Below are positions 2,243 to 4,772 of a stretch of 64,000 bases of DNA, in pieces. Under the pieces are notes generated by a model that saw only the letters and a list, made by a program, of their open reading frames with translations, was not told the origin of the DNA and made no database searches. Origin of the DNA: Lysobacteraceae bacterium (GTDB lineage: Bacteria > Pseudomonadota > Gammaproteobacteria > Xanthomonadales > Rhodanobacteraceae); the NCBI GenBank assembly GCA_021372495.1, contig JAJFUF010000005.1, positions 1-64,000 on the forward strand, read 5' to 3'. The translations under genes and the position numbers were made by a program. Within the stretch, counting starts at the first letter, position 1. Each line of letters starts with the position of its first letter.

Positions 2243-3082
2243 ATGGAAACGGGAATCACGCGCCACGTCAGCAGCGAAGCGCCGCGGGTGATGGTGGTCG
2301 ACGGCTCCAAGGTGGCGCGCCGCCTGCTGCAGCAGGTGCTGGAGGCGCAGTTGCCGGGCGTCGAGGTCGTCGCCTGCGAGAGCGGCGCGGAAGCGCTGCG
2401 CCGGCTCGGCGACGGCGCCGTCAACCTGCTCACCACCGCGCTGCGCCTGCCCGACATGGACGGGCTGGTGCTCGCGCGGGAGATCCGCGAGCACGCCGCG
2501 CAGGCCTACATCCCGATTGTGGTGGTGTCCGGCGACGTCGAGGAGCGCCTGCACAACCGCACGCTGACCGACGACGTCACCGACTACTTCGACAAGTCGC
2601 TCGGCTTCGGCGCGCTGGCCGATTTCATCCGCGGCTACGTGCGCCCCGAGCGGCAGGCCCACGGCGAGGTCCTGTACGTCGAGGACAGCCGCGTGGTCGC
2701 GCTGGCGACGCGGCGCATGCTGGAGAAGCACGGCCTGACCGTGCTGCACGTGGTCAGCGTCGAGGACGCGCTGGCGCTGCTGGAAACCGCGCAGGCGCAG
2801 GGGCGCATCGGCGCCGACCTGGTGCTGACCGACGTCAACCTGAAGGGCGAGCTGACCGGCGGCGACCTGCTCGACCGCGTGCGCCACCGCTTCCACTACG
2901 GCAAGGGCCAACTGCCGGTGCTGGTGATGACCGGCGACGACAATCCCCGGAACCAGGCTGCGCTGCTCAAGGCCGGCGCCAACGACCTGGTGCAGAAGCC
3001 GATCGAGGAACAGTTGCTGATCACCAAGCTGCTGTTCCAGCTGCGCGTGTCGCAGCGCTTGCGCGCGACGGTGTCGGCGTGA
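2243..3082 (+). CDS. Two-receiver response regulator with a degenerate first receiver
   Basis: The 279-residue protein is two CheY-like receiver domains in tandem with no output domain. In domain 1 (about 14-130) the acidic pair is reduced (D20-G21) and the phospho-acceptor position, four residues before the LPDMDG proline, is Ala66, so it should not be phosphorylated. Domain 2 (about 141-275) keeps the acidic pair E147/D148, Asp197 and Lys252. A likely SD, GGGAGCG, lies just upstream. The stop overlaps the ung GTG by 4 bp, so the regulator and a DNA-repair enzyme are co-translated. The cognate kinase is not in this neighbourhood. The architecture resembles PleD without GGDEF; the function is unknown. 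Confidence 0.85.
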
Positions 3083-3804
3083 GCGAGGTCGGCAACGAAG
3101 CCGACGCGCGGCTGCGCCTGGAGCCCTCCTGGAAGGCGCGCCTCGGTCACTGGTTCGCGCGGCCGGAGATGCGCGCGCTGGGCGAGTTCCTGCGCGCCGA
3201 GAAACGCGCCGGCAAGACGATCTATCCGCCCGGTCCGCAGATCTTCGCCGCGTTCGACGCCACGCCGTTCGAGGCGGTGAAGGTGGTGATCCTCGGCCAG
3301 GATCCCTACCACGGCCCCGGCCAGGCGCACGGGTTGTGCTTCTCGGTGCCGCCGGGCGTGCCGCCGCCGCCGTCGCTGGAGAACATCTTCAAGGAGATCC
3401 AGCGCGACCTCGGCGTGCCGCGCCCGGACCACGGCTGCCTCACGCCGTGGGCGCATCGGGGCGTGCTGCTGCTGAACGCGGTGCTGACGGTCGAGCGCGG
3501 TCAGGCCGGCTCGCACCAGGGCAAGGGCTGGGAGGGCTTCACCGATGCCGCCATCGACTGCCTCAACCGCGAGCGCGAGGGGCTGGTGTTCATGCTCTGG
3601 GGCAGCTATGCCCAGGCCAAGGGGCGACTGATCGACAGCCGTCGCCACCTGGTGCTGAAGGCCCCCCATCCCTCGCCGCTGTCGGCCCACCGCGGCTTCC
3701 TGGGCTGCGGTCATTTTTCCAGCGCCAACCGCTACTTGCAGGAGCACGGCCAGGCTCCTATCGACTGGTCGCTGCCGCCCCGCGCCGCGCTCGTGGCCGC
3801 TTGA
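3079..3804 (+). CDS. ung: Uracil-DNA glycosylase
   Basis: Family 1 uracil-DNA glycosylase excises uracil from DNA as the first step of base excision repair. The 241-residue protein carries the water-activating loop GQDPYHG (73-79, catalytic Asp75) and the HPSPLS loop (197-202, catalytic His197). The start is GTG at 3079 within the GTGA overlap with the response regulator. The slightly long N-terminus before the conserved core is ordinary for this family. The stop codon overlaps the -35 hexamer of the rpoH promoter. Confidence 0.97.
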
Positions 3805-3831
3805 CGCATTTCCTGTACGGTGTGGTATAGT
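3801..3831 (+). promoter_or_regulatory. Probable housekeeping (sigma-70) promoter of rpoH
   Basis: TTGACG at 3801-3806 and TATAGT at 3826-3831 are separated by 19 bp, slightly longer than ideal. The site lies across the ung stop codon. It is the only AT-containing promoter-like site here and places transcription start upstream of the CIRCE operator. Confidence 0.6.
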
Positions 3832-3861
3832 TATCCGCGTCGCGGGAACTGCCCGCGATGA

Positions 3862-3888
3862 TTAGCACTCCAACTGTTCGAGTGCTAA
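3862..3888 (+). promoter_or_regulatory. Perfect CIRCE operator (HrcA-binding inverted repeat) upstream of rpoH
   Basis: TTAGCACTC (3862-3870), a 9-nt spacer, and GAGTGCTAA (3880-3888) match the CIRCE consensus TTAGCACTC-N9-GAGTGCTAA at all 18 arm positions. CIRCE is the operator of the heat-shock repressor HrcA. Here it lies about 30 nt downstream of the promoter -10 hexamer and about 27 nt before the rpoH ATG, in the 5' leader where bound HrcA would repress transcription. Confidence 0.93.
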
Positions 3889-3914
3889 ATTTCGGTCGTC
3901 AGGAGGTGCCACGC

Positions 3915-4772
3915 ATGTCCCAAGCCCTGGTCGCCAGCAATCTGCCGATTCCCAGCGTCGTCGGCAGCCTCGATGCCTACATCTCGGCCGTGCATCGCAT
4001 CCCGGTGCTGAGCCTCGAGGAAGAGCAGGAGCTCGCGCAGCGCTACCGTGGCGCGGAGGACCTCGCCGCCGCCAAGCAGCTGGTGCTCTCGCACCTGCGC
4101 TTCGTGGTGCACGTCGCGCGCGGCTACAACGGTTATGGCCTGCAGCTCGCCGACCTGATCCAGGAAGGCAACATCGGCCTGATGAAGGCGGTCAAGCGCT
4201 TCGATCCCGAGCAGGGCGTGCGCCTGGTGTCGTTCGCTGTGCACTGGATCCGCGCCGAGATGCACGAATTCATCCTGCGCAACTGGCGCATCGTCAAGGT
4301 CGCCACCACCAAGGCGCAGCGCAAGCTGTTCTTCAATTTGCGCAAGTCGAAGAAGCGCCTCGGCTGGATGAACGCCGAGGAGGTGCGCACGGTGGCGAAG
4401 GAACTCGGCGTGCCCGAGGCGACCGTGCTGGAGATGGAGGCGCGCCTCAACGGCCACGACATCGCCTTCGACGCGCCGGCCGACGCCGACGACGACGCGC
4501 GCCCCGCGCCGGTCGCGTACCTGGTCGAGCAGGGCGCCGACCCGTACGAGTCGGTAGCCGACGCGGACCAGGAAGAAAACCAGATCGAAACGCTGCAGCA
4601 GGCGCTGGGCAAGCTGGATGCGCGCGCGCGCGACATCGTGCAGCGCCGCTGGCTGGCCGAGGACAAGGCCACCCTGCAGGATCTGGCCGGCGAGTACGGC
4701 GTCTCCGCCGAGCGCATCCGCCAGATCGAGGCGAACGCGATGAAGAAGATGCGCGCGCTGTTCGTGGCCTGA
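3915..4772 (+). CDS. rpoH: Heat-shock sigma factor RpoH (sigma-32)
   Basis: RpoH directs RNA polymerase to heat-shock promoters. The 285-residue protein has region 2 core-binding and -10 recognition sequences (about 50-125), the diagnostic RpoH box QRKLFFNLR (135-143), and a C-terminal helix-turn-helix for -35 recognition. I chose ATG at 3915 because AGGAGGT sits 7 nt upstream and the protein then starts like other RpoH proteins. A longer frame opening at 3858 would run through the CIRCE operator. Having both a CIRCE site and its own sigma-32 function suggests joint HrcA/RpoH control of heat shock. Confidence 0.96.

Follow-up and report, generated by a model that had tools for sequence, protein, structure and literature searches.

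A CIRCE operator overlapping a sigma-E-type promoter motif before rpoH suggests joint control of the sigma-32 gene by HrcA and sigma-E

Is the sigma-32 gene itself under the control of HrcA in bacteria that possess this repressor, and if so, through which promoter? The sigma-32 system has been taught from Escherichia coli, in which rpoH is controlled mostly post-transcriptionally and HrcA is absent. The question is raised by the rpoH leader of a Lysobacteraceae bacterium, which carries an inverted repeat identical to CIRCE, the HrcA operator. We analyzed a 64-kb stretch of contig JAJFUF010000005.1 (here called the window), the whole genome to which it belongs (2.97 Mb in 47 contigs), and the rpoH leaders of other bacteria. 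The locus contains the following features:

3079 to 3804, + strand: ung, uracil-DNA glycosylase, the upstream neighbor of rpoH
3862 to 3888, no strand assigned: CIRCE operator, perfect consensus, with arms at 3862-3870 and 3880-3888 and spacer CAACTGTTC; kept in relatives
3901 to 3906, + strand: Shine-Dalgarno sequence AGGAGG of rpoH
3915 to 4772, + strand: rpoH, sigma-32, 285 amino acids (TIGR02392, rpoH_proteo)

The rpoH product matches TIGR02392 with 415 bits (cut-off, 323), and the nearest named locus is that of Dyella flagellata, whose RpoH is 83% identical; similarity points to Rhodanobacteraceae as the probable family. The gene order, ftsE-ftsX-double receiver protein-ung-rpoH, is close to the ftsEX-rpoH order usual in the class. 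The protein with two receiver domains, encoded at 2243-3082 between ftsX and ung, has no close named family in NCBIfam.

The operator, TTAGCACTC-CAACTGTTC-GAGTGCTAA, shows no mismatch to the CIRCE consensus TTAGCACTC-N9-GAGTGCTAA. It lies between the stop of ung (3804) and rpoH, ending 26 bp upstream of the rpoH ATG (3915), and is the sole match with three or fewer mismatches within the window. Dinucleotide shuffles of the window gave no CIRCE at this threshold in any of 100 trials, so that the perfect CIRCE reported in a sequence-only reading of this DNA stands far above chance.

That reading had proposed to look for hrcA and for other CIRCE sites in the genome, and both are present. An intact hrcA (TIGR00331, 319.6 bits, cut-off 197.2; PF01628 also matched) is the first gene of an hrcA-grpE-dnaK-dnaJ operon, and a genome-wide search allowing up to three mismatches yielded two CIRCE sites, one in the rpoH leader and the other at G000:C5:87212, 43 bp upstream of the groES ATG. 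The accompanying premise that CIRCE normally sits on groESL and dnaK operons thus holds here for groES, but not for the hrcA-grpE-dnaK-dnaJ operon, where no CIRCE with three or fewer mismatches was found.

We found the operator to be well conserved when the rpoH upstream regions of relatives were compared, as the sequence-only reading had also suggested. An rpoH gene was present in all 40 relatives searched. Within the order, 27 of 30 leaders (this genome included) have CIRCE with at most two mismatches, a count made up of 24/25 members of the window's own family, L007 being the exception, and 3/5 from other families. The two arms are nearly fixed among relatives, and perfect in most family members; the nine bases between them vary, as do the flanks.

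Beyond the order, we sampled 149 genomes of the GTDB class Gammaproteobacteria (beta included), approximately one per family, and could read 129 rpoH leaders. CIRCE with two or fewer mismatches precedes rpoH in 87 of the 99 hrcA-positive genomes (the other 12 lack it at this threshold) versus 4 of the 30 hrcA-negative ones (Fisher p ~4e-14), a statistic that concerns association with the rpoH leader rather than function and that counts genomes of related, hence incompletely independent, families. Absence of hrcA from a draft genome may reflect an assembly gap; G315 and G448 belong to one genus, yet of these two only G448 has hrcA. Perfect rpoH CIRCE sites occur, for example, in Dyella, Pandoraea, Nitrosomonas, Methylocaldum, and Pseudoalteromonas, and the rpoH loci of enterics and Vibrio are without CIRCE. 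The link between HrcA and rpoH, which had appeared unusual from this sequence alone, is therefore what most hrcA-positive genomes of the class show. Given the contrast between hrcA-positive and hrcA-negative genomes, rpoH-CIRCE is an ordinary feature of the hrcA-bearing members and is probably ancestral in them. Since the genome harbors hrcA and a groES CIRCE, and since the rpoH CIRCE is kept in relatives and tracks hrcA, control of rpoH by HrcA is the likely reading of the site.

In other classes of the phylum, none of 40 rpoH leaders, one of them from family f165, contained CIRCE with three or fewer mismatches. Eight genomes of f165 (L346 to L353), which lie outside the class, have CIRCE 21 to 89 bp upstream of rpoH.

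The promoter that the operator would control is indicated by a second conserved signal, which extends into CIRCE itself:

3845 to 3851, + strand: sigma-E-type -35 element GGAACTG (GGAACTT in the consensus), separated from the -10 element by 17 bp; a block of columns conserved when 96 class leaders are aligned, absent at groES CIRCE
3869 to 3873, + strand: sigma-E-type -10 element TCCAA; its TC closes CIRCE arm 1, and its last A falls on the third base of the spacer

The sigma-E promoter consensus is GGAACTT-N16-TCNNA. The copy in the window, GGAACTG-N17-TCCAA, is the only such match in the 64 kb; with six of seven -35 bases and a spacing of 17 instead of 16, it would be a promoter slightly off consensus. 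When 96 class leaders were aligned on CIRCE, GGAACTT stood out at positions -16 to -10, as did T-N-A over the first three spacer bases, and no position further upstream, to -36, was conserved. The resulting class consensus, GGAACTT-N16-TCTNA, whose TC coincides with the two final bases of CIRCE arm 1, fits the sigma-E consensus fully. The Dyella flagellata leader (L035) combines a sigma-E motif with a perfect CIRCE. GAAC is found at the expected -35 place in 64/96 class leaders and 26/27 order leaders, versus 0/52 groES CIRCE sites, which served as a control. Likewise, A occupies spacer position 3 in 74/96 class and 23/27 order leaders, versus 6/52 groES CIRCE sites (p 5e-15, class sample). 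These elements are also linked, as a promoter predicts; in the class sample the A is present in 59 of 64 leaders with the -35 element and in 15 of 32 without it (p 2e-6). Even among hrcA-negative leaders, 7/30 have a sigma-E-like motif (e.g., GGAACTTTTCCGCAGGCTTGCAGTCTTA in L178), versus 0.8 expected from shuffles. The genome encodes an rpoE orthologue (C21:109733; 325 bits, cut-off 236), and because the same kind of motif, GAGAACTT-N16-TCTCA (AGAACTT-N16-TCTCA), precedes this gene, sigma-E is expected to read such sites here.

We therefore favor, at a probability of roughly 0.78, an arrangement in which an HrcA operator lies over the -10 element and start of a sigma-E (RpoE)-dependent rpoH promoter, so that full output would need both active sigma-E and the loss of HrcA. 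What the analysis establishes is that a conserved operator and a conserved sigma-E motif stand here in register with each other, that the operator co-occurs with hrcA, and that the genome has hrcA, rpoE, and a CIRCE at groES. From these sequence features we predict that HrcA binds, that sigma-E is used, where transcription starts, and that two signals act together. With the -10 element at 3869-3873, transcription would start near 3878-3882, inside CIRCE, and bound HrcA would therefore cover both the -10 element and the start. When GroESL is in surplus, HrcA would be folded and bind CIRCE, occupying the sigma-E promoter from approximately -10 to +10; it would also stand in the path of transcripts from a weaker sigma-70-like promoter upstream. 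Heat or misfolding would titrate the chaperonin and release HrcA, envelope stress would raise sigma-E, and rpoH would then be transcribed. In Caulobacter, HrcA activity does depend on GroEL (PMC8119881).

Several observations call for restraint. CIRCE with up to two mismatches is missing in L007 and in 12 of the 99 hrcA-positive class genomes, the window's sigma-E match is slightly off consensus, and in a third of the class leaders that have CIRCE, GAAC is not where it would be expected. In Stenotrophomonas maltophilia, 10 min at 42°C left the rpoH transcript unchanged and raised rpoE 5.9-fold, and sigma-E is required for growth at 40°C (PMC6479208); these data, compared here by transcript alone, warn that strong heat induction of rpoH should not be taken for granted in the order.

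The sequence-only reading had placed a sigma-70-like promoter just upstream of CIRCE and took it to support repression at the transcript start:

3801 to 3831, + strand: weak candidate sigma-70-type promoter, by direct reading; TTGACG (3801-3806), 19 bp, and TGG-TATAGT (extended -10, 3823-3831)

This claim survives in part. TTGACG and TATAGT with an extended -10 TG do exist, but the site is weak and lies ~30 bp upstream of CIRCE, and the conserved signal that overlaps CIRCE is of the sigma-E type. If transcription nevertheless started at the sigma-70-type site, HrcA would repress rpoH as a roadblock, and GGAACT/TCCAA would be unused by sigma-E in this bacterium. The extended -10 (TGGTATAGT), a better sigma-70-like site (T[GTC]GAC-N16-18-TACNAT) in this region of 13 other family genomes, and the fact that the window's sigma-E match departs from consensus in one base and, by 1 bp, in spacing all speak for such a roadblock. 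We nonetheless consider it unlikely, as the sigma-70-like site of this genome has a 19-bp spacing and was missed by a strict sigma-70 scan, which found no promoter between 3600 and 4000, and as the sigma-E motif keeps its register with CIRCE class-wide and is absent at groES CIRCE.

The same upstream promoter would be needed if the inverted repeat acted chiefly at the RNA level, forming a hairpin or thermosensor at the 5' end of the rpoH message, since a transcript from the predicted sigma-E start, inside the repeat, would be without the left arm. A 9-bp stem is possible in the longer transcript. The leader from the predicted sigma-E start, however, shows no more folding than shuffled sequences do (z -0.22), it matches no Rfam family at the cut-off, and the presence of the repeat tracks hrcA, as a protein operator predicts; we rejected a thermosensor or known leader RNA on the fold and the Rfam search, and regard a role in RNA as highly improbable overall. 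Least probable, by a small step, is that CIRCE at rpoH is a relic devoid of present function. Some hrcA-negative genomes do keep CIRCE-like sites (L206, with one mismatch; L170, with three), but this genome has an intact hrcA, and both here and in most family members perfect arms have persisted next to diverged spacers and flanks.

How does the proposed HrcA- and sigma-E-dependent promoter compare with known systems? In E. coli, sigma-E transcribes rpoH from P3, so that a sigma-E-type promoter is found on rpoH there as here; E. coli, however, has neither hrcA nor CIRCE, whereas here operator and promoter are merged. At groESL in Bacillus and Caulobacter, the operator sequence is identical, and the repressor is presumably the same, with GroEL-dependent activity. 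The CIRCE described here differs in that it targets a sigma factor gene and overlaps a sigma-E-type -10 element; the -35 element of this motif is missing at all 52 groES CIRCE sites of our control. The same wiring has been predicted for Geobacter sulfurreducens, in which a perfect CIRCE was placed at -51 from the rpoH start (2004; PMC545781, Table 8). This was a single deltaproteobacterial prediction with no promoter overlap reported, while the arrangement found here recurs across the class Gammaproteobacteria and goes with a sigma-E-type promoter motif. The G. sulfurreducens prediction is the only rpoH-CIRCE that we found in the open literature searched, and the same search found no description of CIRCE overlapping a sigma-E promoter, which is weak evidence of absence. 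The distribution of rpoH-CIRCE may be partly known already; Permina and Gelfand (2003) may list such sites in these groups.

For the class as a whole, we lean slightly towards a composite rpoH element in most HrcA-bearing Gammaproteobacteria (beta included), in which an HrcA half-site also contributes bases to the -10 element of sigma-E. The composite would be an old two-signal gate joining the cytoplasmic response of HrcA/GroEL, the envelope response of sigma-E, and that of sigma-32, and enterics and others would have lost HrcA and kept the sigma-E promoter. If so, most HrcA-bearing Gamma- and Betaproteobacteria place sigma-32 under both HrcA and sigma-E, and E. coli represents a reduced version of this control. 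In another family of the order, L030 and L036 (Xanthomonas pisi) retain GGAACTT-N-TCCAA with an apparently decayed CIRCE (five mismatches in L036), which suggests that HrcA control was lost and the sigma-E-type promoter kept.

Other conserved elements were seen around these operators. A dyad, TGTAC-N6-GTACA, is kept in most family members at ~30 bp or more before CIRCE (e.g., L008, L012, L016, L021, L023, L025, and L035); it overlies a sigma-70-like promoter (e.g., TGGACA-N17-TACNAT), and its copy in the window, at 3814-3829, reads TGTAC-GGTGTG-GTATA. In the groES leaders of the class sample (L277 to L305), CTATTA often directly precedes CIRCE, a promoter register unlike that of rpoH. The eight f165 rpoH leaders are without a sigma-E-type motif, and in five of them a common block, with TTTTAATCATTAAA or a close variant at its end, directly precedes CIRCE. 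The rpoH leader L211 (genome G310) contains tandem CIRCE-like sites, TTAGCAGTC...GAGTGCTAA being followed directly by a perfect CIRCE.
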